From: Diplonema papillatum
Taxonomy: Eukaryota; Euglenozoa; Diplonemea; Diplonemida; Diplonemidae
Direction: 5' to 3'
NCBI GenBank assembly: GCA_030068145.1
Contig: JAPJBO010000715.1
Span: 55,590-119,589 of the forward strand
Length of the DNA: 64,000 bases
The position numbers and the translations under genes were made by a program. Within the stretch, counting starts at the first letter, position 1. The number at the start of each line of letters is the position of its first letter. This document shows positions 8,955 to 64,000 of the stretch, one piece after another. A model generated the notes under the pieces. That model was not told the DNA's origin and searched no databases. It saw nothing but the letters and a program-made list of their open reading frames with translations.

Positions 8955-8956
8955 TC

Positions 8957-9157: not shown

Positions 9158-9326
9158 TGAGCCGGTCCATCCCCTCTTGATAGACCGAAGAATACAGCAC
9201 CGGGCAATTCGATGCAGCTCTAGGGACTAGGGATGGACCTGGTAGACCGTGGTGGACCGTGATTCACTGTATAAACAGCGGCAGGCACTTCGATGCAGTT
9301 TCAAGAGATAGGGACGGACCGGCTCA
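9158..9326 (+). mobile_element. MITE family M, copy 1 (169 bp)
   Basis: Terminal inverted repeats TGAGCCGGTCC / GGACCGGCTCA are bounded by a 5-bp target duplication GTTAC (9153-9157 and 9327-9331). The interior contains mirrored TAGACCG and TGCAG blocks. No coding capacity. Copies at 12171-12350 (same orientation) and 21737-21915 (opposite orientation). Confidence 0.85.
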
Positions 9327-9339
9327 GTTACACACAACA

Positions 9340-16640: not shown

Positions 16641-16843
16641 CCCTCTCACTGTTACACCACAAAGCTGAACCCCACAAGCACAAAAACGTCGAAAGACGCG
16701 TATTTCGTACGCCCTTTAAGGGATCGTCGGAAACACAAAATACGGCAGGTAAAAGGGGGTGGGCAGAAGGTCGAAGTCTGGCCGCGCAACAGGTTCAAGG
16801 CGTTCCCCCGTAAGCGGGGGGACAGAGGTGAGGTGAAGCGGGC

Positions 16844-22663: not shown

Positions 22664-22825
22664 GTGTTTGTCAGGCCTTCGACTACCCTGAGCTACCGCA
22701 CTGTGCACAGTCTACGTTACAGCAGATGGAACGCGTTTGTTGCGCCGCCGCGGGGGCCTACGAGTGGGTTTCGTTGTGCGACTCTCCGCTCGTTTGCGTC
22801 GGTTCGCGCGCCGGGTGGACGCAGC
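22645..22825 (-). repeat. Repeat family F, copy 2, abutting the RNase H remnant
   Basis: Shares long blocks with 11679-11910. On the minus strand VVEGLTNTLMQQ reads directly into the RNase H-containing frame, with a TAG just before it. It may be the 5' part of the truncated retroelement. Confidence 0.55.
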
Positions 22826-24780: not shown

Positions 24781-25329
24781 ATTAGTCGCAACCTAGTACC
24801 AAGGTGAAAATGTGCGAACGAATTCCGTCTACACCCCCAACACTACCCCGACACCCACCCAGCCACAACTGTCAGCCGGAGAATATTAAATACCGGACCT
24901 TTGAACCTCGAAAAGCGCTAAAAAGACAGGCGCTTCGTTTTGTTTGTGCGTGCCGGTTGATCGCATTCCCACTTGTATTTACCCTGTGTATATTCAGGTA
25001 AGGAATTCTGATCAACCACCGCTGCCTACGTCTTTGTAGCCTGCACAAAACATTGAAGGGCAGCCCGCAAGATTGTTAGTAATAAAAGAGAAGGGAACCA
25101 TAGTATGTCAAGATCCGCAGGGAAAGAAAACAAAGCTAAGGGTCGCCGGCCATAAGAACGACGTCAATCGTCGACAACAAACCAAGGAAGAAAAACGCCG
25201 CTCGCTGCCAGATGTCGTGAAGCCGGTACATCCTGCGAGGGAATACAAACGGCAAGCGGAAGAGCCTCGACGGCAAAGAAAGAAAGCCGCAAGCGAGTCG
25301 CGCCGCGGCGGCCCCGGTCCCCGCGTCCA
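24781..25329 (+). promoter_or_regulatory. Probable 5' leader of the giant repeat-protein gene
   Basis: It contains a consensus-quality splice donor CAG|GTAAGG at 24995-25003 and a TATTAAATA element at about 24885. A 16-codon ATG frame at 25105-25155 lies in the same phase as the giant ORF but ends in TAA. The giant frame is open from 25156 but has no ATG until 25330. A leader intron from 24998 would explain the donor; the acceptor is not obvious. Confidence 0.4.
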
Positions 25330-28300
25330 ATGGCGGCGGTCAGGAAAAAAGGCGTTGCTCGGCATCCGACGCCGCCGCCGCCGAAAGCACCTCCTGCGCG
25401 GTTTCCGCTGGCGGGGGCTCCCCCTTCGGGCCTTCCGCCGAGCGGTCCTGCTACAGACGCGCCGCTCGCACGTGCTTCGACGCACTCTTCACCGGCGAAT
25501 CCAAGTGCCCCTTCGGCACCCCCGCCGACGGGTGCGCTGCGTGCGAATGCGGCCGCGTCTCCACCGCCAGCAAGCAATGCACGGCTCACCCTCGCGGCGC
25601 CGATGAAGCCGTGTCCTGCGGGCGAATCTCCGGCGAATGCAGGTCTTGCGAGCAAATATCTAAAGAATGCATGCCTTGCCGGCGAATCCCCAGTGAACGC
25701 GTCTCTTGCGAGCGAATCTGCACTGGATGCGCGTCTAGCGAGCGAATCTGCAGTGAATGCACCGCTCACCAGCGAATTTCCACCGAACGCACGCGCAAGC
25801 GAATCTCCACTGAGCGCGTGTCTTGCAAGCGAATCTCTAAAGAATGCATGCCTTGCTGGCGAATACTCAGTGAACGCATCTCTCGCCGGCGAATCTGCGC
25901 TGGATGCACGTCTCGCGAGCGAATCTGCAGTGGAGGCCCCGCTCGCCAGCGGGTTTCCACTGAACGCACGCGCAAGCGAACCTCCGCGGCACGCGTGTCT
26001 TGCGAGCGAATCTCCCGCGCCTGCACGCCTCGCAAACGCAGCACCCGCAGCGAATGCGCGGTCCGCAAGCGCGTTGCCAACTCCGATTGCTCGCACGACA
26101 CCCCCCCGAGCTCAGTGTCCGCCAGCGAGTACTCATCCTGCAGATTCACCCGGGACACACGAACCGGGTGCGGGCACCCCGTCGACGAAGGCGCCTCTTC
26201 CGAGCCGTCAGGCCGTGGACAGACGCGGCGACTCCGGTCGAAGTGCGCCGTGTCGATCGGTCCTGCTATGCGGGCGTGCCGCCCATCCGGCACGGCCGGC
26301 CTGCTGCAAGTCCGGAATCTGCACCATCTCGCCTCCCACCACCACCTGCGGGGCCGCAGCGAGGCTGGCGGCCGAAGGGGCCGCCGCCTCCTCCGCGCGG
26401 ATTTTTCCTGATGCACAGCCTGGGCCCCGTATCTCCCGAGCGGTCGATGCGGCTAGCGGCAGGAGAGGGCGGACGGCGTGCGAAAAGGGCGCCGCCGAGG
26501 CCTTGCAAGCCTGTCCCGCCGACGACGGCCGGTGCACCGCCGGCGGCGAGCCCGGGCTATCGGGCTCCGGCGGGTGGTTCGCCGCCGCCCGTCCGCGTGA
26601 TGAAGGCGCATTCCCTCATCGTGCGCACTCTCACGCGGCGGCTCACTTGGTCACCCGTCCGCGTCATCATGGCGCGTACCCTCATGGTGCACACTCTCAT
26701 GGTGATCACGTTGCACACCCTCATGGTGCACTTTCTCATGGTGATCACGGTGCACACCACCCTCGTGGTGCACTTTCTCATGGTGATCACGGTGCACACC
26801 ACCCTCATGGTGCACTTTCTCATGGTGATCACGTTGCACACCCTCATCGTGCACTTTCTCATGGTGATCACGTTGCACACCCTCATGGTGCACTTTCTCA
26901 TGGTGATCACGGTGCACACCACCCTCATGGTGCACTTTCTCATGGTGATCACGTTGCACACCCTCATCGTGCACTTTCTCATGGTGATCACGTTGCACAC
27001 CCTCATGGTGCACTTTCTCATGGTGATCACGGTGCACACCACCCTCATGGTGCACTTTCTCATGGTGATCACGGTGCACACCACCCTCATGGTGCACACC
27101 ACCCTCATGGTGCACACTCTCACCCGACAGCTGCGCCCATGAGGCACTTAGAAGCGGCCGGTCGAGCGAAAAGTCGGCGGACGGGCGCCGGTGTCGGCGG
27201 AGCGGCGCCGGTTCGCTTGTATGCCCTCGCGTGCCTGCTCGCGTTCGGCGTGGCCCCGTGCCGAGCGACGACGCCGACAGTGACGTTAACAACCCCGATC
27301 CAGCTCACAGCCGCCGTCTCGAGCGGCCCCGCTGAGGTCGTCTCCGGCAGCGCCGCGCTTTTCTCGATTTCGGTCGCCAGCAGCGCGGAGACGGAGCGAG
27401 AAGGGATCGTCCTCATCCCCTCCGCCGCCCTCGAGCCGGCGACGCTCGTCCAGTGGGGGCCCTCCGCCGCTTCTGTCGTCTTCACGTGCCCGCAAGAAGG
27501 CTCGGTGGTGCACCACGTGTGCCGGTTGAACGGCACGTTCGGCGTGAGCGCTCAAGTCTTCTACTTTAAAGCCTTCCCGGTGGAGACCACGGTCGGCCAG
27601 TGGCGGCCCGTCATCGAAATCGGGTCGCGATCCGCGGACACGATTTCCCTCGAAATCGACACGGTTTCCGTCGTCGGCGTGTTGAGAGTGGTGTCTGCGG
27701 TGGTGCACCCTTCGGCGGTCGTGCTGGCGGATCAGGAGGTGAAGGTGCACTTGACAGTGGAGAGCAGCGGCGACGGGTTGGACGGCGGAGAAATCTCGGT
27801 GGACGCGTGGGCGGTCGAAGACGGCGCCCTCGCCGCCGCATCGTCGGACGGCTTTTCCGACGCCGTCCAGTGCTCCGGCAATGGCTCTTCGGTCGTGTGC
27901 GATACGAAGACCCTGCTCTCGTACTCCGCGGGGGGTACCTCGCACGTCTGGCTCGTGTTCACCCCGGCGAATACCACGCACGGAGCCCTAAACGCGACGT
28001 TCACCGTCAGAACCGACCAGTTCCAAGACGCGGAGGTGGTCCCGTTCATCAGCGTCACCGGCACCTTCGGCGGGATGGTGGCCGCCGCCGAGGTGCTGCC
28101 CGTCGAACCACTCCCGGCTCTGCACCCGAGGACGGCGCGCTTCCGGCTCGCTTTTTCAGCGGAGAGCACCGTCGGGTTCAAGGTCACAGCGAGCGCCGCG
28201 TACTTCAACGCCCGCCCGAGACTCGGCACGAGCCGCGTCCTCGCGGAGTCGGCGGCTTGCGACGACTCCGGGGGCGTGTACGCCTGCTCGCTCTCGAGCC

Positions 28301-31300
28301 CCGCCGCCGCCGGCGGCGTGCGCGAGGTGTTCGTGTTCTTCGAACCCGCGGCCCGGCTGGCCGGGCGGGTCGTGGTGCCGTTCACGCTCGCAGCGGACGG
28401 GTATCGCACCGAGACCGTAGCGCCGGCGTTCGTCGTCGTGCCGCAGCTCGGGCTGGCCGCGGTCGCGTCGGCGCCGTATTCGGGGGAGCCCGGCGGCGGC
28501 GAGCTGGCGGCCGCGTTCAACCTGACGGCCACCGCGCACGCGTTTTCGCTCGAAAAGCTCGTCGTCTCGCTCTCCGCGAACCTCGCGCCGCACCCGCTGC
28601 TCTGGGCGCACAACGCCTCGGCGCCGCGCGCGCCGTGCTCCGCGTCGGGCGCGAACGTCTACGTCTGCGACGCAACCTCCAAGTTCCTCGCGGGACCAGA
28701 CGGCCCGTCGTACCAGATCATCACGGTGTACGCACGTGTGCGGGACGACGGCGGCTTGGCCGGGCCGGCGAAGGTGTCGGTCCACGCAGAAGCGCGGACG
28801 TTCGACCCGGCGTCGGCCGCCGCGGAGTTCGTCGCGATCGGCGACTTCTCGCTGCGCGGGGTCGCCATAGAGGGCGTCCCCTCGTCGGCCGGCGCGTTGG
28901 TCCGTGCGCATTACCGCGTGTCTGCCACGATGGCGTCGTCGGGAGGCGAGGTCGTGATACTCTCCGGCTTCACGGACCTCGGCCGCGAAGGCCCGCGCTG
29001 GGGGCTCACCGACGACGTGCACGCCGCCACGCCCTGCGTGTCCAACGGCACGCAAACCGCTGTTTGCGACGTATCCTCCTCCATCCGGTTCTCCCCACTG
29101 GCCGAGGCGCACGTCTACCTGTTCTTCGCCCCGGACGCGCCGGATGCCCTGTCCCCCACGGCACGCCCGTCCGTCGCCTTCGAAGCGTCTTTTTTCCGGT
29201 CGCTCGTCGACCTGCCTTCGATCGAGCTCAACGGCGTCCTCGACATCCAACCGGGGGTCCCGCACGCCGCGCCGGTCGTGGCGTTCCCGGGGGAGTGGGT
29301 CGTCCTGCGGTATTCGATCGCGGCGTCGTCGCGAACCAACGGCGGGGAAACCGTCGTTCTGCGCGGCGGAGGCGCCGCGGCGGAGGTGGTCATGTTCAGC
29401 TTGAATTCGACGGGCGAAGAGGTGGTGCACGATGCGCCAGTGGATGACGCGAGGTGGACAGCGTGTCCAGTAGTTGGACTGAACGCCGTGTGCGACCTGG
29501 CTGCTCAAGGCGTGGTATTCGGGGAGATCGCGAACGGGACCACTTTCGTGCGACTGAGGGTGCTCCCGAGCCGAGAACACCCGGCTGGCGACCTGGGGTT
29601 CTCCGCTGAGGTCACAGCCACCAACTTCACCCCCGCGGCCCACGTCGCTTCGGCGGTTGCCGTCAGCGTCGTCGACGTCGATGCCACCGTGGCCATCCCC
29701 AACTCCCCAGGGGGCTCCGCGCAGCCGAATGAAGAAGTCGCGGTGCAGCTCTTGGTGCGTTCGAGTTTGAACGTGACCGGGCTTTCCATCCTCGTCCCGA
29801 TCGACCCCCTCGCCTCCGGCACCTCCGTTTTTTTCTCCGTATCGCCCGCCGCGTTCCGTCGAAACGCCGAGGCGTGCACGCGCGCATCGGACTTCGAGCT
29901 GTCGTGCGCGTTCGACCGCCTTTCTGTTTGGTCGTCGTCCCCTCGGTCCGTGACGGTGTGGCTCACCCCGGAGCCGGCGACCGTCGGCTCGTGGAACGCG
30001 ACGCTGCGGCTCGTGGGACCTTACGTGAAAGAAGCCGTTTTCACCCCCAACATATCCGTCGAAGCCCTCCTCGTCGCTGAGTCCCGAGACGTGTATCCAT
30101 ACCCGGCGGTGTCTGGCGAGGAAGTCAGAGTTGCGATAGACCTGTCGACCAGCTGGCAGCCGGCGCACGCCGCGTCCGTGTGGGTCCCGATGGAGAAGCT
30201 CGACAGGGAGCGCCCCGTGCGCTGGGCCGCGTCCGACGACCTCGCGCGGGCGTCGTGGTGCGCGAACGACACAAACCCGTGGTACGCCATATGCGAGCTG
30301 TCCGACCAGGCGCTGGTGCCGTCGGCGGTCTCGGTGAGGGGATACCTCTGGTTCACCCCGGCGAACGACACGATCGGGGTCCTGAACATCACGGTGCTGT
30401 TCAGCGCCGGAGGGTTCGGACTCCGGTCGGTACTGCCTTCGATCCTCGTCCACGGTTTGTTCACCGCGACCACGTACGTACCTGACGAAGTTTTCTGGAG
30501 CGGAGAGCCCGTGTGGGTTCGGGTGTCGATAACCGGCACGGGCTGGTCCGTGGGTTCCGAGGAAATCGTGGTCGATTCCTCGAAGGTGGAGCCGGGGTCG
30601 ATGCTCCGGACGCTCGAAAAAGGCGACTACAGCACCGCGGAGCGGTGCTTTCTGCGGGGCGCCGGCACCGTCGTCTGCGCCCTGAACGTCAACGACTCGC
30701 TCGCTGCGGCGTCCGCCGCGGGGCGGGTGGGGCCGGAGGGCGCGCGCGACGTGTGGCTCGAGTTCACGCCCGCGACGACCACCGTCGGGGCGCTGTTCCC
30801 GACCGGCGGGATCACCCTGCGCGCAGCGTATTTCCGGGACCTCGTGGTGCCCCTGGGAGGCATCACCGTGCTCGGGCGGTTGAACCCCTATGCTGACTTC
30901 CGCACCGCGCACGTGTTGCCAGGGCACGTCGTCCCGTCAGGCACGGAAGTGCAGGTCCACTGGGGCGTCGGCTCCACCGGCAGTTCGACGGGCGGCGAGG
31001 CGTTGGCCATCGCGGCTGAAAACGTCGAGCCGGGGAGCGTGCGGGTGGGGTGGACTGCTGTGGCGGCGGGGTCGTGGGAGTGCGGTGGCGACGAGGGCGG
31101 CTGGTACGGGTGCCGCGGCTGCCACTACGTGTGCAACCTCACGCGCGACACGCCGGACCACCTCCCCGTGTTCGCCGCGGGGGTGATCCGGCACGTGTGG
31201 CTGTTTTTCGAGCCGAACAACGCGACCGTCGGCGAGCTCAACGCCACCGTGACGTTCACCGCGGACACCTTCGTCACCTCCACCGACGTCCCGCACGTCG

Positions 31301-43300: not shown

Positions 43301-46300
43301 TTCACCTGTCTTCGACCGGACAAGAATCAGGGCAAAGCGCGCAGCTTTGGGTGCCCGCCGACAAGTTAAACGACGGCGCGTCCGTCCGCTGGGGGCTCAC
43401 CGCGGATGCCGGGAGTGCGAACTGGTGCTCGAATGGTACCGACACCGGCGTGGGCGGGCGGTACAGCGTCTGCGATTTCAAGGCGCACGGCGTCGTCCTC
43501 ACAGCTGACGAAAGCGTTGTGTACCTGTGGCTCACACCAGTCAACTCCACCGTGGGGTTCTTGAACATGACTGCCATTTTGCAAGGCGACGGGTTTTCGG
43601 GAGACACGACGGTGCCTCCGATCTTGGTGCACGGCCTGTTTACAGCCACCAGTTACACTCCGAATGCGGTTGTTTGGAGTGGTGAGGATGTGTGGGTGAG
43701 AGTGTCGGTGGCGGGGACAGGGTGGACCGTAGGGTCGGAACGCGTATCCCTGCGGTCATCGTGGGCGACTGCAGGCACCCTGCAACGAACGATGGCGCTC
43801 GGGGACCAATCGGTGGTCGGAGAGTGTTGGACGAGCGGCGTCGATACGGTTTGCCCCCTCAATCCAAACGGTTCGCTGACGGCACCCGCGTCAGTCGGGC
43901 AGCTTGGCCCCGACGTGTCCCGCGAAATCTGGCTCCACTTCACTCCGGCGTCCACTACCGTCGGCCAGCTGTTCCCAAACCCTCTCCTCGACGGGTTCGT
44001 GGTCTCAGCTGCTTACTTCGAAGATCTCAACGTGCACGTGGACCTAACGGTTTTCGCCCGCCTTGACTTGTATGCTGCATTCCGGACGGCGCACGTCCTT
44101 CCTGCTCACACGGTGACTGCAGGCACTCTGGTTCGTGTCCATTACGGCATCGGATCCACCGGCAATTCGCAAGGCAACGAAGCCGTCGCAATACAACGCT
44201 CCAGCGCCGAACCGGGTACCGTCCGGTTTGGGTGGACAGACCACTATGCTGCCACGTGGGGGTGTCCTGTTGACGAGGAAGGCTGGTACGGCTGCCAGGC
44301 GTGCCACTACGTCTGCAACATGACTGAGCCGACTCCCGACGGCCTCCCCGTGTTCCACAGCGCAGGGAACCGCGGAATTTGGCTGTTCTTCGAGCCGAAG
44401 AACACAACTGCGGGTGAACTCAACGCGACCGTGTTTTTCTCCGCCGATAACTTCGTTTCGAACTGGGACGTTCCCCACATAGTTGTCCTCGGTGATTTTG
44501 GCATAGAAGCCTCGTCCAGCTTGGTGCACCCATCTCAGCCTGTGTACGCTTTGACACCGGTGAGAGTGCAATACAACCTTGTTTTATCAGGCATGCCGGA
44601 AGGTGAGTTGTGGGTTGACATACCCTACGAAGCAGTCGGAAGCGAACCGAACACGCAACAACTCCGCTGGGGTGCCCAAGACGACATTTCGGAAGCAACG
44701 ATTTGCCGAGCATCAGTAAGAGGAGGCTTGTCTGTTCAGTCGTGCGATCTTCGGTCGTTGCACGAGCAAGGAGTCGACTCGTATTCCGCATCCCGAGTGG
44801 AAGTCCACTTGTTTTTCACGCCAGCTTGGCGTACTGTCGGAGTCCTAGGGGCGCCTGTCACTTTCCACGGAGACAATTTCAATCGTCTTTCAGAGACGCC
44901 TTACATTTACGTGCTGGGCCGTTTCTCCGTATCTGCATTACCGGCTTCAGTCGTCAGCTCCGGTGACGTGATTGAAGCTCAGTTCACCGTGGCCGCAACA
45001 GGTTCACCTTCCGAGGATGAACGAGTTGTCGTGACGCTGTCGTCGGGCCTTCGACCAAACAGATTGCGATGGAAGCACAATGCAACAGCAGATGCGGTAA
45101 GTTGCAGTGCATTGCAAGGCACGGCGTGGCTTTGCCGAGCAACCGGGTTGTTGCCTTCGGAAACAGAGTCAGCTGTGATGACGATTCTGGTCGAGAGTGA
45201 CAGTACACTTGCAAAAGGCGAGGTTACCGGAGGTGGACCCGCGTCCGTTTCAATCGCAGTTCACGCTAGTCATTTCAAAACAGCAGAGGCCACGTCTACA
45301 CTCGCAGTAATCGGTGAGCTTTCTGTGATATCGTCCACCCAGTCCTACACGTCGAGCATCGGAGCAGGAGGTACTGTGGTGCTGTACTACCGGTTGGCCG
45401 GCACGGTGCTTTCGAATGGAGGAGAACGCGTCGTTGTAGACGCATCTGCAACTACAGACGGCAGCTCGGTTCGCTGGGGAAGCACTGCTGATTCGCATGA
45501 TGCTGTTGCATGTGATGCCAACGTGACTGTGAATGCTATTGTCTGCGACTTGTCAGGAAAGCTGACCTTCGGACCGCGGCATGAGGCGAGCGTCTTCTTG
45601 TTCATCATCCCCGAGTTCGCGTTGTCGAGTACTGCACTGTGGAGGGCGGACATCGTTTTCGCAGCTTCGTGGTTCAGGTCGTTGGTGACCACTCCCGAAG
45701 TGACACTCTCTGGGATCCTTGACGTCGAAGTCTCAACACCCTTGGCACGTCCTGTTATTGCGTTTCCTGATGAAAACATCATGCTCGGCTACCAGGTCAC
45801 CTCTACAGTTCTCACCGATGGTGGGGAGTCTGTTCGTTTGTCTCCTCGTTCATTCTTCTACCCAGGCTCAGTCGTTTTCAGCGTGAACACTACAGACTGG
45901 ACAACACCTGGAGATGCAGATTGGCATGCCTGTGCTGAGGATGCGTTGATGTGGGATAGAGATGAACACGTGCTTTGTGATCTATCGTCAACTGGGTTGC
46001 GATTCGGATACGAAGGCAACGGAACGACGAATGTTTGGTTGAAGTTTCAGTCGAATCCTGGAGCTCACGGGAGAGCAAACCTCGAAGTCGAGTTCGATGC
46101 TTTGAACTTTACTGCAGTGCGGCACTGGCCGAATACTGCTGTCGCTGGCATTGTGACAGTCAAAGACGTCTCCGTGGTTCCGGCTGTTGCGAGGGCTGGT
46201 GAGAGAGTCGGGATCTTCGTCACGTTGGCTTCCACCGGGAACGTCACGAACATGGGGATAAGGATTCCGTTGTCAAGTGTTGCCCCAAGAACTGCTGTTT

Positions 46301-49300
46301 CTGTCGGGTACCACACCACGGGAGACGACGCAGCTGACAACATTTGGGATTGCGGAGAACACACGACGGAGGCTGAAGTGTCTTGCGAAGGGATCAGTCT
46401 GTCGCAAGCGGATACCGTGTTGGCTGTTTGGGTCACCCCGGATCCTGCGACGGTTTGGGAATGGAACGCAACGTTTCGTATCGTCGGTGAATACATGCGG
46501 GAAGCTGTGTTCACGCCGAATGTATCGGTTGGTGCGGTTCTAGAAACAGAGGCCTTGTCAGTAGTTCCTTACCCTGCAGCTTCCGGACAGGAAGTGCGTG
46601 TGGCTGTCGAGATTTCCACTAGCGGTCAACATGCGAAGGGAGCTTCGATCTTCGTTCCGGTAGAGAAACTGGACAGCGAGCGGCCGGTGAGGTGGGGACT
46701 GGTGCCCGATTTGTCGCAGGCACGCTGGTGCGAGAATGCAACCGACACCGTGTATCGGGTCTGTGATCTGTCGCAGGGAGACGTTGTGTTGACCGGCGAA
46801 GTACATACAGTTTACTTGTGGCTGACGCCTGACAACGGCACTGTGGGCTTCTTAAACATGACAGTTGTGGTGAATGCGGATGATTTCACGCATGACACGG
46901 CGCTTCCGGCTATCCTCGTCCACGGGCTTTTCACTGCGAGTGCGTACATTCCGGACCCTATTGTATGGAGCGGGGAGCCTGTCTGGTTGCGCTTGTTGAT
47001 ACGGGGTACAGGCTGGACGGTCGGATCTGAGCAAGTTCGAGTGCCGACTGGTAAGCTGCAACCCGGCTCCTTGAAACGAGCAACAAACCGGAACGATTTC
47101 TCGACCTATGAATCGTGTTGGGCATCGTCAACTGAGTACACGGTGTGTCCATTGAACGTGAATGGGTCGAGAACTGCGCTGACGTCGACTGGTCCACTGG
47201 GGCCGGACGTGGAACGGGAGGTGTGGCTGTATTTCACACCTCATGCGACGACTGTCGGCAGTCTGTTCTCAGAGCTGGCATCGGAGGGCATTGTGCTAGG
47301 AGCTGCTTTCTACAACGACTTGCTGATACATGTTGACCTGACGGTGCTGGGGAAGTTGGATTTGTACGCAGCCTTCCGCACGGCGCATGTCATGCCGGCA
47401 AATGTTGTGCCCAGTGGAACAGCGGTGACTGTTCACTGGGGTGTGGGGTCTACGGGAGATTCTACAGGAGGGGAAGCATTCGCGTTGTCGGTTGAGAAAG
47501 CAGAGCTCGGAACAGTGCGTCTCGGGTGGAGTGATCGGTATGAGGATTCATGGGAGTGTCCGGTTGATGAGGGTGGCTGGTTTGCCGATGGCTGCAGGGG
47601 CTGCTATTTCGTCTGCAATGCAACAGGTGCACCGACACCGGATGGATTGCCTGTCTTCACTTCTGAGGGGACTCGGCACGTGTGGCTGTTCTTCGAGCCG
47701 AAGAACACGACAGCGGGGGAACTAAACGCCACCGTGTTATTCACTGCTGACAACTTCGTTTCGAACTGGGACGCACCTTACATCCTGGTTCTTGGGGAGT
47801 TCGGCTTTGAAGCCTCGTCCAGCTTGGTGCACCCATCTCAGCCTGTGTATGCCTTGACACCGGTGAGAGTGCAATACAACCTTGTTTTATCAGGCATGCC
47901 GGAAGGTGGGTTGTGGGTTGACATACCCTACGAAGCAGTCGGAAGCGAACCGAACACGCAACAACTCCGCTGGGGTGCCCAAGACGACATTTCGCAAGCA
48001 ACGATTTGCCGAGCATCAGTAAGAGGAGGCTTGTCTGTTCAGTCGTGCGATCTTCGGTCGTTGCACGAGCAAGGAGTCGACTCGTATTCCGCATCCCGAG
48101 TGGAAGTCCACTTGTTTTTCACGCCAGCTTGGCGTACTGTCGGAGTCCTAGGGGCGCCTGTCACTTTCCACGGAGACAATTTCAATCGTCTTTCAGAGAC
48201 GCCTTACATTTACGTGCTGGGCCGTTTCGCGGTATCTGCGTTACCTGCCTCCGTCGTCAGCTCCGGTGACGTGATTGAAGCTCAGTTCACCGTGGCCGCA
48301 ACAGGTTCACCTTCCGAGGATGAACGAGTTGTCGTGACGCTGTCGTCGGGCCTTCGACCAAACAGATTGCGATGGAAGCACAATGCAACAGCAGATGCGG
48401 TAAGTTGCAGTGCATTGCAAGGCACGGCGTGGCTTTGCCGAGCAACCGGGTTGTTGCCTTCGGAAACAGAGTCAGCTGTGATGACGATTCTGGTCGAGAG
48501 TGACAGTACACTTGCAAAAGGCGAGGTTACCGGAGGTGGACCCGCGTCCGTTTCAATCGCAGTTCACGCTAGTCATTTCAAAACAGCAGAGGCCACGTCT
48601 ACACTCGCAGTAATCGGTGAGCTTTCTGTGATATCGTCCACCCAGTCCTACACGTCGAGCATCGGAGCAGGAGGTACTGTGGTGCTGTACTACCGGTTGG
48701 CCGGCACGGTGCTTTCGAATGGAGGAGAACGCGTCGTTGTAGACGCATCTGCAACTACAGACGGCAGCTCGGTTCGCTGGGGAAGCACTGCCGACCCGCA
48801 TGTTGCTGTTGCATGTGATGCCAACGTGACTGTGAATGCTATTGTCTGCGACTTGTCAGGAAAGCTGACCTTCGGACCGCGGCATGAGGCGAGCGTCTTC
48901 TTGTTCATCATCCCCGAGTTCGCGTTGTCGAGTACTGCACTGTGGAGGGCGGACATCGTTTTCGCAGCTTCGTGGTTCAGGTCGTTGGTGACCACTCCCG
49001 AAGTGACACTCTCTGGGATCCTTGACGTCGAAGTCTCAACACCCTTGGCACGTCCTGTTATTGCGTTTCCTGATGAAAACATCATGCTCGGCTACCAGGT
49101 CACCTCTACAGGTCTTACCGATGGTGGGGAGTCTGTTCGTTTGTCTCCTCGTTCATTCTTCTACCCAGGCTCAGTCGTTTTCAGCGTGAACACTACAGAC
49201 TGGACAACACCTGGAGATGCAGATTGGCATGCCTGTGCTGAGGATGCGTTGATGTGGGATAGAGATGAACACGTGCTTTGTGATCTATCGTCAACTGGGT

Positions 49301-52300
49301 TGCGATTCGGATACGAAGGCAACGGAACGACGAATGTTTGGTTGAAGTTTCAGTCGAATCCTGGAGCTCACGGGAGAGCAAACCTCGAAGTCGAGTTCGA
49401 TGCTTTGAACTTTACTGCAGTGCGGCACTGGCCGAATACTGCTGTCGCTGGCATTGTGACAGTCAAAGACGTCTCCGTGGTTCCGGCTGTTGCGAGGGCT
49501 GGTGAGAGAGTCGGGATCTTCGTCACGTTGGCTTCCACCGGGAACGTCACGAACATGGGGATAAGGATTCCGTTGTCAAGTGTTGCCCCAAGAACTGCTG
49601 TTTCTGTCGGGTACCACACCACGGGAGACGACGCAGCTGACAACATTTGGGATTGCGGAGAACACACGACGGAGGCTGAAGTGTCTTGCGAAGGGATCAG
49701 TCTGTCGCAAGCGGATACCGTGTTGGCTGTTTGGGTCACCCCGGATCCTGCGACGGTTTGGGAATGGAACGCAACGTTTCGTATCGTCGGTGAATACATG
49801 CGGGAAGCTGTGTTCACGCCGAATGTATCGGTTGGTGCGGTTCTAGAAACAGAGGCCTTGTCAGTAGTTCCTTACCCTGCAGCTTCCGGACAGGAAGTGC
49901 GTGTGGCTGTCGAGATTTCCACTAGCGGTCAACATGCGAAGGGAGCTTCGATCTTCGTTCCGGTAGAGAAACTGGACAGCGAGCGGCCGGTGAGGTGGGG
50001 ACTGGTGCCCGATTTGTCGCAGGCACGCTGGTGCGAGAATGCAACCGACACCGTGTATCGGGTCTGTGATCTGTCGCAGGGAGACGTTGTGTTGACCGGC
50101 GAAGTACATACAGTTTACTTGTGGCTGACGCCTGACAACGGCACTGTGGGCTTCTTAAACATGACAGTTGTGGTGAATGCGGATGATTTCACGCATGACA
50201 CGGCGCTTCCGGCTATCCTCGTCCACGGGCTTTTCACTGCGAGTGCGTACATTCCGGACCCTATTGTATGGAGCGGGGAGCCTGTCTGGTTGCGCTTGTT
50301 GATACGGGGTACAGGCTGGACGGTCGGATCTGAGCAAGTTCGAGTGCCGACTGGTAAGCTGCAACCCGGCTCCTTGAAACGAGCAACAAACCGGAACGAT
50401 TTCTCGACCTATGAATCGTGTTGGGCATCGTCAACTGAGTACACGGTGTGTCCATTGAACGTGAATGGGTCGAGAACTGCGCTGACGTCGACTGGTCCAC
50501 TGGGGCCGGACGTGGAACGGGAGGTGTGGCTGTATTTCACACCTCATGCGACGACTGTCGGCAGTCTGTTCTCAGAGCTGGCATCGGAGGGCATTGTGCT
50601 AGGAGCTGCTTTCTACAACGACTTGCTGATACATGTTGACCTGACGGTGCTGGGGAAGTTGGATTTGTACGCAGCCTTCCGCACGGCGCATGTCATGCCG
50701 GCAAATGTTGTGCCCAGTGGAACAGCGGTGACTGTTCACTGGGGTGTGGGGTCTACGGGAGATTCTACAGGAGGGGAAGCATTCGCGTTGTCGGTTGAGA
50801 AAGCAGAGCTCGGAACAGTGCGTCTCGGGTGGAGTGATCGTTATGAGGATTCATGGGAGTGTCCGGTTGATGAGGGTGGCTGGTTTGCCGATGGCTGCAG
50901 GGGCTGCTATTTCGTCTGCAATGCAACAGGTGCACCGACACCGGATGGATTGCCTGTCTTCACTTCTGAGGGGACTCGGCACGTGTGGCTGTTCTTCGAG
51001 CCGAAGAACACGACAGCGGGGGAACTAAACGCCACCGTGTTATTCACTGCTGACAACTTCGTTTCGAACTGGGACGCACCTTACATCCTGGTTCTTGGGG
51101 AGTTCGGCTTTGAAGCCTCGTCCAGCTTGGTGCACCCATCTCAGCCTGTGTATGCCTTGACACCGGTGAGAGTGCAATACAACCTTGTTTTATCAGGCAT
51201 GCCGGAAGGTGGGTTGTGGGTTGACATACCCTACGAAGCAGTCGGAAGCGAACCGAACACGCAACAACTCCGCTGGGGTGCCCAAGACGACATCTCGCAA
51301 GCAACGATTTGCCGAGCATCAGTAAGAGGAGGCTTGTCTGTTCAGTCGTGCGATCTTCGGTCGTTGCACGAGCAAGGAGTCGACTCGTATTCCGCATCCC
51401 GAGTGGAAGTCCACTTGTTTTTCACGCCAGCTTGGCGTACTGTCGGAGTCCTAGGGGCGCCTGTCACTTTCCACGGAGACAATTTCAATCGTCTTTCAGA
51501 GACGCCTTACATTTACGTGCTGGGCCGTTTCGCGGTATCTGCGTTACCTGCCTCCGTCGTCAGCTCCGGTGACGTGATTGAAGCTCAGTTCACCGTGGCC
51601 GCAACAGGTTCACCTTCCGAGGATGAACGAGTTGTCGTGACGCTGTCGTCGGGCCTTCGACCAAACAGATTGCGATGGAAGCACAATGCAACAGCAGATG
51701 CGGTAAGTTGCAGTGCATTGCAAGGCACGGCGTGGCTTTGCCGAGCAACCGGGTTGTTGCCTTCGGAAACAGAGTCAGCTGTGATGACGATTCTGGTCGA
51801 GAGTGACAGTACACTTGCAAAAGGCGAGGTTACCGGAGGTGGACCCGCGTCCGTTTCAATCGCAGTTCACGCTAGTCATTTCAAAACAGCAGAGGCCACG
51901 TCTACACTCGCAGTAATCGGTGAGCTTTCTGTGATATCGTCCACCCAGTCCTACACGTCGAGCATCGGAGCAGGAGGTACTGTGGTGCTGTACTACCGGT
52001 TGGCCGGCACGGTGCTTTCGAATGGAGGAGAACGCGTCGTTGTAGACGCATCTGCAACTACAGACGGCAGCTCGGTTCGCTGGGGAAGCACTGCCGACCC
52101 GCATGTTGCTGTTGCATGTGATGCCAACGTGACTGTGAATGCTATTGTCTGCGACTTGTCAGGAAAGCTGACCTTCGGACCGCGGCATGAGGCGAGCGTC
52201 TTCTTGTTCATCATCCCCGAGTTCGCGTTGTCGAGTACTGCACTGTGGAGGGCGGACATCGTTTTCGCAGCTTCGTGGTTCAGGTCGTTGGTGACCACTC

Positions 52301-55300
52301 CCGAAGTGACACTCTCTGGGATCCTTGACGTCGAAGTCTCAACACCCTTGGCACGTCCTGTTATTGCGTTTCCTGATGAAAACATCATGCTCGGCTACCA
52401 GGTCACCTCTACAGGTCTTACCGATGGTGGGGAGTCTGTTCGTTTGTCTCCTCGTTCATTCTTCTACCCAGGCTCAGTCGTTTTCAGCGTGAACACTACA
52501 GACTGGACAACACCTGGAGACGAAGATTGGCATGCCTGTGCTGAGGATGCGTTGATGTGGGATAGAGATGAACACGTGCTTTGTGATCTATCGTCAACTG
52601 GGTTGCGATTCGGATACGAAGGCAACGGAACGACGAATGTTTGGTTGAAGTTTCAGTCGAATCCTGGAGCTCACGGGAGAGCAAACCTCGAAGTCGAGTT
52701 CGATGCTTTGAACTTTACTGCAGTGCGGCACTGGCCGAATACTGCTGTCGCTGGCATTGTGACAGTCAAAGACGTCTCCGTGGTTCCGGCTGTTGCGAGG
52801 GCTGGTGAGAGAGTCGGGATCTTCGTCACGTTGGCTTCCACCGGGAACGTCACGAACATGGGGATAAGGATTCCGTTGTCAAGTGTTGCCCCAAGAACTG
52901 CTGTTTCTGTCGGGTACCACACCACGGGAGACGACGCAGCTGACAACATTTGGGATTGCGGAGAACACACGACGGAGGCTGAAGTGTCTTGCGAAGGGAT
53001 CAGTCTGTCGCAAGCGGATACCGTGTTGGCTGTTTGGGTCACCCCGGATCCTGCGACGGTTTGGGAATGGAACGCAACGTTTCGTATCGTCGGTGAATAC
53101 ATGCGGGAAGCTGTGTTCACGCCGAATGTATCGGTTGGTGCAGTTTTGGACACGGAGGCCTTGTCAGTAGTTCCTTACCCTGCAACTTCCGGACAGGAAG
53201 TGCGTGTGGCTGTCGAGATTTCTACTAGCGGTCAACATGCGAAGGGAGCTTCGATCTTCGTTCCGGTAGAGAAACTGGACAGCGAGCGGCCGGTGAGGTG
53301 GGGACTGGTGCCCGATTTGTCGCAGGCTCGCTGGTGCGAGAATGCAACCGACACCGTGTATCGGGTCTGTGATCTGTCGCAGGGAGACGTTGTGTTGACC
53401 GGCGAAGTACATACAGTTTACTTGTGGCTGACGCCTGACAACGGCACTGTGGGCTTCTTAAACATGACAGTTGTGGTGAATGCGGATGATTTCACGCATG
53501 ACACGGCGCTTCCGGCTATCCTCGTCCACGGGCTTTTCACTGCGAGTGCGTACATTCCGGACCCTATTGTATGGAGCGGGGAGCCTGTCTGGTTGCGCTT
53601 GTTGATACGGGGTACAGGCTGGACGGTCGGATCTGAGCAAGTTCGAGTGCCGACTGGTAAGCTGCAACCCGGCTCCTTGAAACGAGCAACAAACCGGAAC
53701 GATTTCTCGACCTATGAATCGTGTTGGGCATCGTCAACTGAGTACACGGTGTGTCCATTGAACGTGAATGGGTCGAGAACTGCGCTGACGTCGACTGGTC
53801 CACTGGGGCCGGACGTGGAACGGGAGGTGTGGCTGTATTTCACACCTCATGCGACGACTGTCGGCAGTCTGTTCTCAGAGCTGGCATCGGAGGGCATTGT
53901 GCTAGGAGCTGCTTTCTACAACGACTTGCTGATACATGTTGACCTGACGGTGTTAGGGAAGCTGGATTTGTACGCAGCCTTCCGCACGGCGCATGTCATG
54001 CCGGCAAATGTTGTGCCCAGTGGAACAGCGGTGACTGTTCACTGGGGTGTGGGGTCTACGGGAGATTCTACAGGAGGGGAAGCATTCGCGTTGTCGGTTG
54101 AGAAAGCAGAACTCGGAACAGTGCGTCTTGGCTGGAGTGATCGGTATGCGGATTCATGGGAGTGTCCGGTTGATGAGGGTGGCTGGTTTGTCGATGGCTG
54201 CAGAGGGTGCTACTTCGTCTGCAATGCAACAGGCGCACCGACACCGGATGGATTGCCTGTCTTCACTTCTGCGGGGACTCGGCACGTGTGGCTGTTCTTC
54301 GAGCCGAAGAACACGACAGCGGGGGAACTGAACGCAACCGTGTTATTCACGGCCGACAACTTCGTTTCGAACTGGGACGCACCATATATTCTAGTTGTTG
54401 CAGATGTGGGTAGAGTAGAGGCGACTTCGCTAGTTCAGCCGTCTCAGCCCGTCCGTGCAGTTACTCCTATAACTGTGCAGTACGAGCTCCATATTACTGG
54501 TGAACCAAAGGGGGAGTTCACTGTAGACATCCCTGCGTCTAAAGTAGGGGGGGAGCCAGACTCGATTCAAGTGCGGTGGGCGACGGTTGACGAGCCAACG
54601 GAGGCAACCAGTTGTCGTGAGACAGTGCGAGAAGGAATGACAGTTGTGTCGTGCGATCTACGGAGTATCTACACCGCAGGAATCGACGACTTTTCCGCCA
54701 AACGGGTGTCGTTATACCTTTTCTTCACGCCGGCTTGGACCACGGTTGGCGCGTTGGAAGCTCCGGTGACTTTCCAAGGGGAGCATTTCATGCGTGCTGT
54801 TGATGTACCGTTTATTAATGTAGTAGGCAGATTCAGCGTCAGGGCGCAGGTCTCAAAGCCAAGAGCCGTAGAAGCCGGAACAACAGTTGAAAGTGTGTTT
54901 GAACTATCGTCTACAGGGTGTCCAACGAACCGCGAGTACTTGATGATAACCCTGTCACCTGGGTTACGGCCCGGTCCGCTGCTGTGGGCACCGAACGAGA
55001 CGGCGGCGGCAGAGAGCTGTGTTGAGTCTGCGGCCGTGCCAGGCGGCTGGCTGTGCGATGCAGATGGAAAGCTATGTCAGGGCCTTGAACGGCCTTGGAA
55101 ACAGGATATGAGGGTGCTGGCGGTCGTTGATAGCGTCAACGGGAAGGCAGGTCCCGGGTTCATCTCCGTGACTGTGCACGCTGAAGGATTCGAGCAGGCG
55201 ACTGCTGTATCCGAGGTCGGCGTGATCGGAGAGGCGCGCGTCGTGCTGCAATCGGTGGAGACTTTCGCGGGTATGGGAGCGGGCGCCGGCGGAACGGTGG

Positions 55301-58300
55301 TGCTGCACTACAGGGTGAAGGGGAGTGTTTCGTCGATCGGAGGAGAGAGGGCGTCAATCAAAATGGATGACGCGGAAGACGCCGGCGAGGTCCGGTGGGG
55401 ACTGACCCGGAGCCCCCATGCAGCTCGGCCTTGCTCGTTCAATACGACGAAGGCGGTGGCGGTGTGCGATTTGTCGTCAGAGGTGGCCTACAGCCCGCGA
55501 CATGAGGTCAGTGTTTTCATTTTCGCGGCGCCTGAATTTACCGCAGCGGCGTCGTCGCACTGGGGTGCGTCGATCGCATTCGAAGCGGACTGGTTCCGGA
55601 CCACAGTGCACACTCCGCACGTCGAGACCACCGGGATTCTCGACGTCGAAACCATCGAAGTTATCGCTAACCCAATCGTTTCGCTGCCAGGGGAGTGGGT
55701 ATCGGTAGGGTACGGAGTCAGCGCCACGGGGACAACGGCAGGGGGCGAATTTGTCCGCGTGTCGGCACCCGGGTTGGAGAGGGTGATGTTTTCCCTGAAC
55801 TCGACCGGTGTGGCGGCGGACTTGCGGGAGGACGATCTCCGTTGGACATCTTGCAACGTCGCTGGCAGCGAGGATGCCGACGATGCGACGTGCAACATCG
55901 GGGCGTCGGAGACGCACTTCGGTGACGGAAGCAACGAGACCACTTTTGTTTGGCTCCGGTTTGTGCCTGTCCAAGGAGCCGGCGGCTTGCTCGACGTCAC
56001 CGTCAGCTTTCACGCGGACAATTACACGTCTGCCGTACACAAGCCGGCCATCGGTGTCGTCCGAACAGTGTCCATTTTAGATTCCGTGGTTGTGCCAACG
56101 ATCGCGGTTCCCCGGCAAGAGGTTGCCGTGTTCCTTACCCTGGCCGCTTCGTCGAACCTGACGAGCGGTGTGCTCGTCGTCCCGACGCCGGTGCTGGCGT
56201 CAGGAACCACAGCGTACTTCGGTCTAGCATCCGCTCACGGTACCCACGAGGACCATCAGCGGGCAAGACAACTCGCCACAAGGTGTGACCCGGTTTCAGA
56301 GCAGGAGGCATTTTGCACAGGCCTGAATCTGCGCTCTGCAGAGACAGACGTTGCGCTGTGGATGACCCCTGAACCGGACACCCTGTGGTCATGGAACGCC
56401 ACGGTACGGATCATCGGCGAATGGGTACGGGAAGTGGTTCACACTCCGAACGTTACGGTACAGGCATTGTTGATCGCGGACAGCGAAACAGTGGTTCCAT
56501 ACCCTGCTCGTGCAGGGGAGGAGGTCAGGATCACAGTCCGTTTGTCCACCAGTGGACAAGATGTGGGAGGCATCGTCATACGAGTGCCTGAACCGAAGCT
56601 AGACGTGACCAGCTCGGTCCGGTGGGCCCACACACCGGATCGATCCACCGCGATCTTCTGCGCGAATGGAACGGGCACCGGGTACCGTGTCTGCGAGCTT
56701 CAAGATTTGGTTCTCTCCGGCGAAGAGCAGCAGGTGTACCTCTGGCTGACGCCGGAGAACCGAACCGTCGGGTTTTTGAACATGACCGTCATCGTGTCGG
56801 GCCCGGACTTCGTGCACGACACAGCGCTGCCTCCCGTGCTGGTCCACGGGCAGTTCTCAGCGACCGCGTACACCCCGGACGCCGTGGTTTGGAGCGGGGA
56901 GTCGTTTTGGGTCAGGCTGTCGATCACCGGGACGGGGTGGACCGTGGGCTCCGAGCACGTGAGGGTCGCGTCGAGTAAGGTGCAGGATGGCTCGTTGAAG
57001 CGAACGGCGGGCAGGGATGATTTCGAGAGGATGGAGCCGTGTTGGGGTGGAGGAGGGGACTGGCAGGGGTTTACCGTGTGCACGGTGAACGTGAACGGCT
57101 CGTTGGATGCGCACTCCGCGTTGGGGCTGATCGGACCGGATGTCGTCGTCGACATGTGGTTGTATTTCACGCCGGCAGTATCCACGGTCGGGCAGCTTTT
57201 TCCCGTCAAAGAGCACGATGGGTTCATCTTGAGCGCAGCATACTTCGACGAGATGCTCGTCAACATGGAATTGACGGTGCTCGGCCGTCTCGACCCATAC
57301 GCGGCGTTCCGGTCGGCGCAGGTTCTCCCTTCCCACATTGTCACATCCGGGACGTTGATCCGAGCGCACTGGGGCATCGGTTCCACCGGCGATTCAAACG
57401 GAGGCGAAGCCATCGCCCTCCCCGCCGACAAAGCCGAACTCGGGACCGTTCGCGTTGGCTGGACCGACAGGCATTCGGACACCTTCGAGTGCCCGGTCGA
57501 CGTGGGCGGTTGGTACGACGGCTGCCAAGGGTGTTTCTTCGTGTGCAACCTCACCGCCGCGCTGCCGACCCCGGACGGCTCGCCGATCTTCCCGGCGACC
57601 GGCGTCCGGCACGTGTGGCTGTTCTTCGAGCCGACGAACACGACCGCCGGCGAGCTCAACGCGACCGTGCGGTTCACCGCCGACGACTTCGTCGCGAACT
57701 GGGACGTGCCGTACGTCGTCGTCATCGGCGAATTCGGCCTTGCGGGCACCACCGCGCTCGTCACCCCCCAGCAGCCGGTCTATGCGCTCACACCGGTACG
57801 GCTTGAATACGAGCTAGCCGTGACGGGCGAGCCTGAGGGCGAGCTGACGGTTGACGTGCCGCTGTCGGCGCTCGGCGGGGAGCCGGGCGCGGCGCGGCTG
57901 CGGTGGGCGGCGGCCGGCGCGGCCGATGACGCCGAGCCCTGCGGTGTGGCTGCCCGTGGCGGCGTTGCCGTCGCGTCGTGCGACCTGCGTGGCGTGTTTT
58001 CCGCCGGAACCGACGCGTTCGGCGCCGCGCGGTCGCGCGTGTTCCTGTTCTTCACGCCGGCGTGGCCGACCGTCGGCGGCCTCGCCGCCGCCGTCACCTT
58101 CTCCGGCGAGCGCTACGCCAGCGTCGTCGACCACCCGCGCATCCACGTCATCGGCAAATTCTCCATCACCGCGTCTGCAACCCCCACCTTCGTGAAGCCA
58201 GGCGAGACCTTCACAGCCGCCTTCACACTGACGGCAACCGGCGCCCCGTACGCCGACGAGCGGGTGGTGGTCACGATGCCGAACAGCCTGCGGCCCCGCG

Positions 58301-61300
58301 CGCTCGCGTGGGCGCACAACGGCACCGCAGAGCCCGAGGCGTGCGTCCCGGTGGCCGACCGGCAGTGGGCCTGCGACGTCTCCGGGAAGCTGCCGAGGGC
58401 GGGCGGCGAAGCGCAGCGCATGCGGTTCTTCGCGGTGGCGGAGGAAGTGTACGGAGAAGCGGGCCCCGCCCGGCTGTCGATCGAGGTGAGCGCGAAGCAG
58501 TTCAAGCCCGCGCGGAGCAGTGTGTCGGTGATGGTGGTCGGCGGCTTCGAGGTGGTTCTCGACGCCTACGACGCACCGCCCGCCGGGGGCCTTGTCGTGC
58601 TGCGGTACAGAGTGCGCGGTACCGTGTCTTCGAGAGGTGGCGAACGACTGACCTTGCAGACAGATTCGGTCGACGACTCGGCGGACATCAGGTGGGGGGT
58701 CACCGACGATGTGCACGCCGCCCACTCGTGTCAAAAGAACGGCACCAACGTCGTGATTTGCTTCCTGGAAGGACACGTCGTCTTCGGACCCATGCAGGAC
58801 ACGCGTCTGCTTGTGTTCGCAGTCCCCGAGCACACCGGCCGGACCGAGTCTCACTGGGGCGCGTCGATCACGTTCGAAGCGATGTGGTTCGCTGCGCACG
58901 TCGACACGCCGTCCGTCACCGTCACCGGCGTTTTAGATATCGAAACCGGCCCATCCGTTGCGTGGCCGGTTGTAGCGTTCCCAGGGGAGCCCATCGTGTT
59001 GAACTTCGCCGTCGCATCGTCGACGCGCACCGATGGGGGTGAAGCCGTGACGGTATGGCCGTCGTCGATATTCACCGATGGGTCAGTTTCGTTCAGCATG
59101 AACCGAACGGGCGAACCCGTGGACGCAGACCGTGAGAGTGATGGCTGGTTGCCGTGCGCACGTGGAGACGCGGGTTCGATGGTGTGCGACCTTGAAAGCC
59201 AAGGGGTGACCTGGGGCGGCGACGGCAACGAGACGACGAGCATCTGGCTGCGGTTGAAACCTGCCGTCGAAGTCGTCGGCAGCCTCGGCGTCAACGTCGC
59301 GGTCCACGCCGCGAATTTCACGGCGGCGTCCATATCCCCCGGCGCCTTCTGCGCCGCGGCCGTGTCCGTCGACCAGTCGATCGTGGTGCCGCCCGTGGCG
59401 GCGGTCGGCGAAGAGGTGGCTGTCCACCTGCAGCTTTCCGCGTCGGCGAATGCCACGGGTGCTAGCATCCTCGTCCCGGTCCAAGCGCTTGCGAGCGCGC
59501 ATGCGCTTTGGGGGCTTGACGGCGGCGCTAAGAGTAGCTGCGTGCGTGCCTCCGATGAGGAGATGCGCTGCGGCGAGTTCACGCTCGGGCGGTCGGCGAG
59601 AGGCGTCGTCCTGTGGCTCACGCCGACGCCCGGGATCCACTGGGTGTGGAACGCGACGGTGCGCGTGGTCGGGCCGTGGCTGAAGGAGACTGTGCACCAG
59701 CCAAACGTGACGGTCCATGCCGCCTTGGCGGTGGAATCGCACGAAGTGGTCCCGTCGCCGGCAGCTCCCAACGAGGAGGTCCGGGTGGCCGTCCGCGTGG
59801 CGACCACCGGCCAGGCGTCGACGACCGCGCAAATCTGGCTGCCCGAGCACAAGCTCGACACGACCCGCGCCGTCCGCTGGGGACCGACGGCCGACCGCAG
59901 CCTCGCGCGGTGGTGCGCGAACGACACGCAAACGGGGTACCGCATCTGTAGTTTGGAGGACGACAACCTCGTTCTCGGCGCGGACAGCGTCTTCGTGTAC
60001 GTGTGGCTCACCCCAGACAACTCGACGGTCGGGTTCTTGAACATGACCATCCTCCTACGAGGCGCGGAATTCGCGCACGACACCGTGTCGCCGCCTATCC
60101 TCGTGCATGGGTTGTTCACAGTCACGGCATACGCACCCGACCCCACGGTCTGGAGCGGCGAATCGTTCTGGGTTCGCATCACGGTTGCCGGCACGGGTTG
60201 GTCCGTCGGTTCCGAGCACGTTCGAGTCCGTTCGTCTCAGCTAGAGGCAGGGTCGTTGAAACGGTCGTTCGCCCGGTTCGACCTGTCCGACGCAATCCCG
60301 TGCTGGCAGGCAGGCGGGGACTGGGAGGAGTTCACGGCGTGCTCCTTGAATCCAAACGGCTCGTACACTACGACTGGGTCCGTTGGGTTGATTGGCCCGG
60401 ACGTCGAGCGAGAGTTCTGGCTATACTTCACTCCCGCGCGGTCGACAGTCGGCGAGCTGTTCGAGAATCCAGCGCGCGACGGGTTCATCCTCAGCGCGGC
60501 GTACTACAACGACCTGCTTGTCACGCTGCCGTTAACCGTGCTCGGCCGCCTCGATCTCTATTCCGCCTTCCGCACGGCACACGTCCTTCCTTCGCATGTC
60601 GTCCCGTCAGGCACCGCCGTGCGAGCGCACTACGGGATCAGCTCGACCGGCGACTCCGAAGGTGGAGAAGCGGTCGCTATTTCCGTCGACAAAACCGAAC
60701 CCGGCACAGTCCGACTTGGCTGGTCGGACCGGTACGCGGATTCCTGGCCGTGCCCGCTGGACGAAGGGTGGTACGTGAACGGGTGCCAAGGGTGCTTCTA
60801 CGTGTGCAACATGACGGGCGCGCCGACGCCGGACGGGCTGGCTGTGTACACGCCGGACGGCATCCGGCACGTGTGGCTGTTTTTCGAGCCGAAGAACACG
60901 ACCGCCGGCGAGCTCAACGCGACGGTGCGGTTCACAGCGAGCAACTTCGTCGACAACTGGGACGTGCCGAGCATCGACGTGCAGGGCTCCTTCGGGCTGC
61001 TGTCTGCGGCGTCGCTCGTCTTCCCGGCGCAGCCTGTGTACGCGTATTCCCCGGTGCGTTTGCAGTACGAGCTGCGGGTGTCCGGCAGGCCCGAAGGGGA
61101 GCTGGCCGTCAGCATCCCCCAATGGGCGCTGGGCAGCGAGCCCGACACTGTGCAATTGCGGTGGGGCCTCACCGCGGACGCGGCGAAGGCGGTGCTGTGC
61201 GAGGGCAAGGATCGCAAGGGAACCGCGGTCGCCGCGTGTGACCTGCGGTCACTGTACGACGCCGGGGCCGAGGAATTCGGCACCCGGCGCGCGTTCGTGC

Positions 61301-64000: not shown

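Follow-up and report, generated by a model that had tools for sequence, protein, structure and literature searches.

Very long chains of small domains arranged in super-repeats are found in titin, a cytosolic protein built from Ig and fn3 domains, and long repeat ectodomains on a multi-pass membrane part are found in polycystin-1 and the adhesion-GPCR-type receptors, which are defined by PKD, REJ, GPS, PLAT or 7tm domains. For the TRP-like membrane proteins of Pfam family PF06011, a giant ectodomain of the kind described here is, to our knowledge, not part of the family. Among protists, the PKZILLA proteins reach about 45,000 aa. These very large proteins of Prymnesium are polyketide synthases, with domains unrelated to those considered here (PMC12300183), and, in the excerpts drawn on, Euglenozoa are listed as one of the phyla in which a considerable fraction of the proteins exceeds 5,000 residues (PMC11573180); since larger protist proteins exist, no size record is claimed in this study. 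For Diplonema papillatum itself, the largest known gene named in the genome paper, as far as the sections used here go, is a 186-kb gene with a kinesin domain, and the terms 'giant', 'adhesion', 'EGF' and 'surface protein' have no occurrence in its main text, supplements aside (PMC10161547). Literature searches on the gene, the family and giant protist proteins returned no description of the gene presented below among the matches listed. Bodonin, a kinetoplastid surface protein named twice in PMC8061765, offered no lead on it.

This study analysed 64,000 nucleotides of DNA from the marine flagellate D. papillatum (the window), which form the terminal 64 kb of contig C715. The window end is the contig end and falls in the middle of a gene, so that the gene is longer than the window. 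With moderate confidence, the window is considered to hold most of one gene for a membrane-anchored surface glycoprotein of ~17,400 residues, for which an adhesion or contact- or force-sensing arm is the likeliest role. The features on which this reading builds are as follows.

25156 to 27138, plus strand: upstream open stretch, probably non-coding in the frame of the giant gene (open frame, tandem repeats, codon log-odds near or below zero)
27139 to 63999, plus strand: first exon of the giant gene, coding part within the window (12,287 codons), running on into contig C1842
27139 to 27267, plus strand: probable signal peptide, consisting of a Met, a basic stretch and a hydrophobic core (LYALACLLAFGV), then APCRA (translation read by eye)
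27328 to 63837, plus strand: repeat domains 1-89 of 103, wholly within the window, domain 90 crossing the window end (iterated HMM)
28474 to 63837, plus strand: eight-domain super-repeat, in-window part from domain 4 on, with a unit of about 1,090 aa or 3.3 kb
44380 to 54400, plus strand: three near-identical 3,303-bp units (44380-47682, 47683-50985 and 50986-54288), the similarity extending to 54400 (self-BLAST, 98-99%)
54050 to 64000, plus strand: perfect (100%) match to reverse-complemented C1842, bases 1-9951, the contig through which the gene continues

The frame scan of the window found frame 1 of the plus strand free of stops at 25156-63999 (12,948 codons), the longest other stop-free frame overlapping it measuring 926 codons; across the stretch joined over contigs from 27142, the giant's frame has 0 stops vs 199-520 in each of the other five frames. 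An earlier note on this DNA had reported an open frame of more than 38 kb with no stop, which was borne out here, the frame being both coding and under purifying selection (see below). The same note had counted at least 12,890 residues from 25330, a figure that needs revision in both directions, as the Met at 27139 is the likelier start, leaving 12,287 residues in the window, and the whole gene is longer. This Met lies 26 residues ahead of what by eye is a typical hydrophobic signal core, in agreement with the secretory-type hydrophobic segment noticed earlier. With codon log-odds trained on the giant gene, four segments covering 25156-27141 scored -0.15, -0.17, 0.02 and -0.57, followed by 0.20 for 27142-27330. 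With training on the unrelated frame at 4614-7520, the same four segments scored -0.28, -0.35, -0.12 and -0.86, followed by 0.09 (27142-27330) and 0.32 (27331-27800); this last value is independent, whereas the giant-trained score of 0.38 for 27331-27800 comes from inside the training stretch. At 26677-27141 the log-odds were higher in another frame (0.22 and 0.36), and two plus-strand frames other than the giant's are open in the 25156-27138 region (396 and 392 codons). The negative or near-zero scores and the rival open frames 5' of 27139 therefore do not support a start at 25330, and the start is probably Met 27139. Judged by codon usage, 25156-27138 is not taken to encode an N-terminal domain; nearly all tandem repeat periods in this stretch are multiples of three, and its score is intermediate because two intergenic control segments scored lower still (-0.41 to -0.53, giant-trained), which together leave some room for such a domain. 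Directly 5' of the likely start codon lies a minisatellite (26678-27097, periods of 39, 81 and 120 bp); tandem repeats at gene 5' ends are described for the D. papillatum genome (PMC10161547).

Beyond the window, contig C1842 takes the giant frame to its stop codon, so that the joined frame measures 17,249 codons between stops and the exon is uninterrupted over about 50 kb. A third contig, C1940, is identical (100%) to at least 9,390 bp of C1842. According to the genome paper, the ~280-Mb genome is apparently haploid, the 142 Mb free of repeats carrying fewer than 600 SNVs (PMC10161547); given this haploidy, the simplest reading is that C715, C1842 and C1940 are overlapping contig ends, and in principle a perfect 10-kb overlap could also stem from a locus that was duplicated recently. 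The assembly searched comprised 271,365,524 bases in 2,910 contigs and thereby differs in contig count from the published one, which has 6,181 contigs of at least 200 bp (PMC10161547). Downstream of the giant exon on C1842, three more exons of 148, 411 and 236 codons were assigned by eye on the same strand. Of the three introns, the last two show clear GT-AG borders on visual inspection, but the first junction, out of the giant exon, is not fixed; introns in D. papillatum are described as mostly GT-AG, alongside spliced-leader trans-splicing (PMC10161547). The earlier description of the gene as intronless thus holds for the exon within the window, which contains no intron, and not for the spliced exons on C1842. 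We infer that the giant exon is spliced into the membrane exons, and the sum over the joined exons from Met 27139 would be about 17,383 residues and 1.84 MDa.

Additional features were observed in the window and across the genome. At 4614-7520 (plus strand), a 969-codon frame, in which visual inspection suggests a PDZ-like stretch as well as several hydrophobic segments, has no Pfam match over the cut-off; at 16832-18738, on the giant's plus strand, there are two exon-like glyoxalase-type frames, one with a match below the cut-off (E=0.033) and one with a match over it (3.5e-7); and at 21958-22692 (minus strand) there is an RNase H-like frame (E=0.00088, below the curated cut-off), perhaps from a retroelement. 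A 20-mer that we take to be the diplonemid spliced leader has 624 exact matches genome-wide, the reversed control having 0. As 110 spliced-leader RNA genes were counted in D. papillatum (PMC10161547), the excess of 624 vs 110 might represent spliced-leader-tagged retrocopies. Two core 20-mers of 18S occur 259 and 165 times, dispersed over many contigs, and nine scanned loci comprised six with partial 18S, two with near-complete or complete 18S and one with none; a scatter of 28S fragments is reported for the genome (PMC10161547).

The main body of the predicted protein is a tandem array in which a single domain occurs 103 times, the final copy being incomplete. An HMM iterated from one seed placed the array at residues 725-14872, with gaps of 1-53 residues. 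The domain is ~130 residues long, mostly with two Cys, and rich in sequons. Mean pairwise identity among the repeat domains is 29%, and identity rises to 0.55 at an offset of 8 domains, 0.51 at 16 and 0.46 at 24, compared with 0.26-0.28 at the other offsets up to 23; for all 94 of domains 2-95, the best match lies at a distance that is a multiple of eight. In total, the array comprises a little under twelve super-repeat units. Exactly two Cys are present in 88 of the 103 domains, four in 13 and three in 2, and the 736 linker residues between domains contain no Cys, in line with the dozens of Cys pairs noticed previously; within the 74 aligned domains (the 89 in the window minus 15 near-identical copies), C71 is invariant and C60 is conserved in at least 90%. 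The many N-glycosylation sequons noticed in the same reading are a genuine excess, with 193 over the 103 domains, where shuffled sequences gave 55.4 +/- 6.6 and the reversed motif gave 60, and with at least one sequon in 90 of 103 domains. A crude propensity profile of the repeat gave short alternating beta-type strands.

Titin offers an analogy, its small domains also forming a very long chain organised in super-repeats. The giant protein differs from cytosolic titin in having a probable signal peptide and membrane exons and in lacking an Ig or fn3 match over the cut-off. The regular eight-domain super-repeat would suit an elastic linker or structural spacer that resembles titin but lies outside the cytosol, for instance at the flagellar pocket or the feeding apparatus, and that has no sensing role. 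Such a spacer is judged unlikely, as the EF-hand (weak), PDZ and TRP-like parts at the other end of the protein suggest signalling, though not decisively.

The repeat was compared with known families at several levels. With the 74 single domains, the HMM search that had been proposed earlier found 12 Pfam families at E <= 1 with one member each (best E 0.044, IG_AIR9) and none over the cut-off; long pieces likewise gave no Pfam match over the cut-off (best E 0.0085, U_exon; IG_AIR9 E=0.13). No Ig-like, fn3, PKD, cadherin or Calx-beta model matched the repeats over its Pfam cut-off. It had been remarked that the domain openings (P-x-A-x-x-GEEVRV) recall bacterial CARDB; this resemblance found no counterpart in hmmscan, as CARDB (PF07705) was absent from the 12 families matching the 74 domains at E <= 1 and from the long pieces, and the likeness to bacterial CARDB or Ig-like adhesion repeats lies in the tandem arrangement of small domains, with nothing over the cut-off in the repeats. 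Among NCBIfam models, none exceeded its cut-off; the best match was a TPR model in one member (E 0.0047), and a MyfA/PsaA fimbrial adhesin model matched weakly in 3 of the 74 domains (best E 0.041). Searches of PDB sequences gave only chance-level matches, the best being phosphoserine aminotransferase at E 0.023 with alignment A1 and one at 0.17 with A3, an eight-row alignment of one of the eight super-repeat positions, with which MyfA also appeared at E=0.76. The two weak MyfA hints point towards an Ig-like fold and are not evidence of homology; taken with the alternating hydrophobic pattern, they make an Ig-like beta-sandwich plausible for the repeat. Pattern scans with A3 of genome_contigs and viral_contigs (29 and 63 pattern matches) yielded no relative, and tblastn of plasmids with three repeat domains yielded no match. 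A search of the D. papillatum genome with an eight-domain query, in which 22 of 22 first-look candidates were scored, returned 18 matches (E <= 0.001), every one of them on C715, C1842 or C1940. Since all own-genome matches fall at the giant locus, the repeat looks like an orphan of the giant gene at the sensitivities used. The suggestion of an unrecognised domain family is therefore upheld by a repeat that has no Pfam or NCBIfam match over the cut-off and no convincing match to a PDB sequence, in other words no strong match to a known family.

The three near-identical units within the array allow the history of the gene to be considered. The number of these 3,303-bp units depends on the assembly, each unit being worth 1,101 residues. 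Their GC3 is 0.57 vs 0.75-0.87 in the other full units; along 44935-54842, GC3 runs at 0.77-0.87 before, 0.57 within and 0.75-0.83 after them, a sharp change inside one exon. An assembly artefact, or a decaying gene swollen by mis-assembled repeats, might be suspected from the presence of these three units and from C1842 beginning inside the last one. This explanation is extremely unlikely, because the other units match the eight-domain query at 37-58% identity and hence are not assembly duplicates, and because the frame carries the mark of purifying selection; the doubt is confined to how many near-identical units there are. In domain pairs at 58-93% identity, pN was below pS in 67 of 67 pairs (44 with dS unsaturated), the pairs not being independent of each other, and dN/dS among the three near-identical units was 0.16, 0.14 and 0.11; in these substitution patterns, purifying selection on the giant frame is shown. 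The differences between near-identical units come in patches, and gene conversion may therefore play a part. Growth of the giant gene would have proceeded by tandem duplication of eight-domain blocks. The recent amplification of 3.3-kb units could also be read as the source of strain specificity in a mating or self-recognition receptor, by analogy with the Tetrahymena mating-type proteins MTA and MTB as presented in the excerpted source (PMC10901506). That role is very unlikely for D. papillatum, in which sex was never observed according to the genome paper, though its genes imply the potential (PMC10161547).

From the N-terminus, the modules of the giant would follow the order signal peptide, 103 repeats, TIG, EGF block, TIG, DUF7630, multi-pass TRP-like part, putative EF-hand and PDZ. 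The TIG before the EGF block reached 31.1 bits in Pfam (cut-off 20.9), with no single stretch counting alone, and the one after it 55.0 bits (cut-off 20.9). The EGF block between them has 875 residues, 14.1% of them Cys, and EGF profiles over the cut-off (EGF_Teneurin, 65 bits vs 24.3; EGF_2, 54.8 vs 22.1). Within the spliced exons, DUF7630 scored 30.9 bits (cut-off 27), and eight hydrophobic peaks were counted in the last exons, three of them marginal (1.62-1.67, threshold 1.6). EF-hand_1 was below its cut-off (18.7 bits vs 25.4, E=0.0012), its loop DADGDGSVTWIE being canonical-looking by eye, and PDZ_2 in the last exon scored 52.3 bits vs a cut-off of 27. The TRP family PF06011 was also below its cut-off on the giant (12.8 bits vs 28.5, E=0.054). 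As an analogy, polycystin-1 and the adhesion-GPCR-type receptors likewise combine a multi-pass membrane part with a long ectodomain made of repeats. Their PKD, REJ, GPS, PLAT and 7tm domains were not among the Pfam matches of the giant, for which window positions 44242-63999 were scanned as single domains only.

The C-terminal module is shared with other proteins of D. papillatum. The 411-residue exon had 18 matches in the own genome, two of them being the giant gene itself (C1842 and C1940) and 16 lying on 13 other contigs, of which C1257 and C1328, with similar scores, may represent the same locus. All 10 paralogue loci examined, chosen beforehand by a match to one exon of the C-terminal module, were hit by the module as a whole, and the Cys-rich G[FY]WR part was present at 3 of those 10 (C663, C845 and C194) and also at C1257, within 1.5-kb flanks or fetched stretches; an EF-hand loop was seen by eye in several paralogues. 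PF06011 matched five of six paralogue frames at E <= 0.1, one of them over the cut-off (31.8 vs 28.5 bits), the sixth (L031) having no match (four loci outside this Pfam scan, L026, L028, L032 and L033, were covered by the comparison with the module), and a PF06011 scan of the own genome found 8 places, 5 over the cut-off and none at the giant locus, vs 0 of 14 control genomes. Because the PF06011 match is below the cut-off in the giant and over it only in homologues, the membrane module of the giant is, on profile evidence, related to TRP-like proteins through its paralogues, and ion-channel activity would be no more than a conjecture. In all of the large Diplonema proteins matched (C663, C1257/C1328, C194, C845 and others), the same multi-pass module is present. 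In C663, a single frame encodes an ectodomain, which Pfam assigns to F5/8-type C and which looks TIG-like by eye, followed by DUF7630 and the TRP-like part. In C1257 (13431-38834; C1328 too), a second giant frame spans 8,468 codons; EGF-like stretches were seen in it by eye, and it includes the Cys-rich part as well as the beginning of the membrane module. In the long stretches read of these two, 3,333 codons of C663 and 8,468 of C1257, the repeat HMM found no copy at E <= 0.01. The upstream frame at 4614-7520 is no evident relative of the membrane module, as window positions 1-25000 gave no match to it at E <= 0.01.

These paralogues bear on whether the membrane exons belong to the giant gene. 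The signal peptide, sequons and Cys pairs would fit secretion alone, and the giant exon has its own stop codon on C1842 with a first splice junction that is not fixed, so that the 103-domain chain could be a secreted or shed matrix or coat glycoprotein forming a cell coat, with the membrane exons as a separate downstream gene. That arrangement appears rather improbable, even more so than the spacer considered above, given that the downstream exons are on the same strand, that clear GT-AG borders can be seen by eye at 2 of 3 introns, and that C663 holds an ectodomain, DUF7630 and the TRP-like part in one frame, which supports the spliced exons belonging to the giant gene. Of the earlier proposal of a megadalton surface or matrix glycoprotein, the surface part is supported by the probable signal peptide, paired Cys, sequons, EGF and TIG domains and membrane exons, and a purely secreted matrix is less likely.

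Combined, the order of modules in the giant exon, the restriction of the repeat to this locus and the continuation over perfectly overlapping contigs are established at the level of sequence, and they frame the preferred reading of a membrane-anchored surface protein. The signal peptide, sequons and Cys pairs place the chain outside the cytosol, and the membrane exons with the EF-hand/PDZ tail suggest that its foot is embedded in the membrane and that a signalling end lies on the inner side. After entry into the ER via the signal peptide, each repeat would fold as a small beta-sandwich, typically with one disulphide, and would be glycosylated. An Ig-sized domain spans ~4 nm, so the ~100 small domains would form a rod of about 0.4 um that has its base in the TIG and EGF domains and is anchored by the TRP-like multi-pass module, with the EF-hand and PDZ in the cytosol. 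The rod would bind prey, substrate or another cell, and the pull or binding would be passed to the membrane module. In this connection, D. papillatum has been proposed to feed on living eukaryotes (PMC10161547). As a more far-reaching and tentative possibility, which we put forward with some doubt, the protein may represent a new receptor class for touching or holding prey, in which a 1.84-MDa chain with an orphan 103-domain rod is mechanically coupled to a TRP-like/EF-hand/PDZ membrane module, and which would be the largest member seen of a diplonemid giant-receptor family with a common anchor and differing ectodomains.

Overall, the giant belongs to a known kind, the giant multi-domain surface proteins, and what is new is the combination of an orphan repeat, an eight-domain super-repeat, an exon of ~50 kb and a TRP-like anchor common to a family of large proteins. 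We know of no molecule that has been assigned to how D. papillatum touches its food. With gene replacement reported in this organism (PMC10161547), the giant protein is a directly testable candidate for food contact. Additionally, the repeat offers a new domain family to solve, and the gene would be a clean case of giant-protein growth by block duplication.
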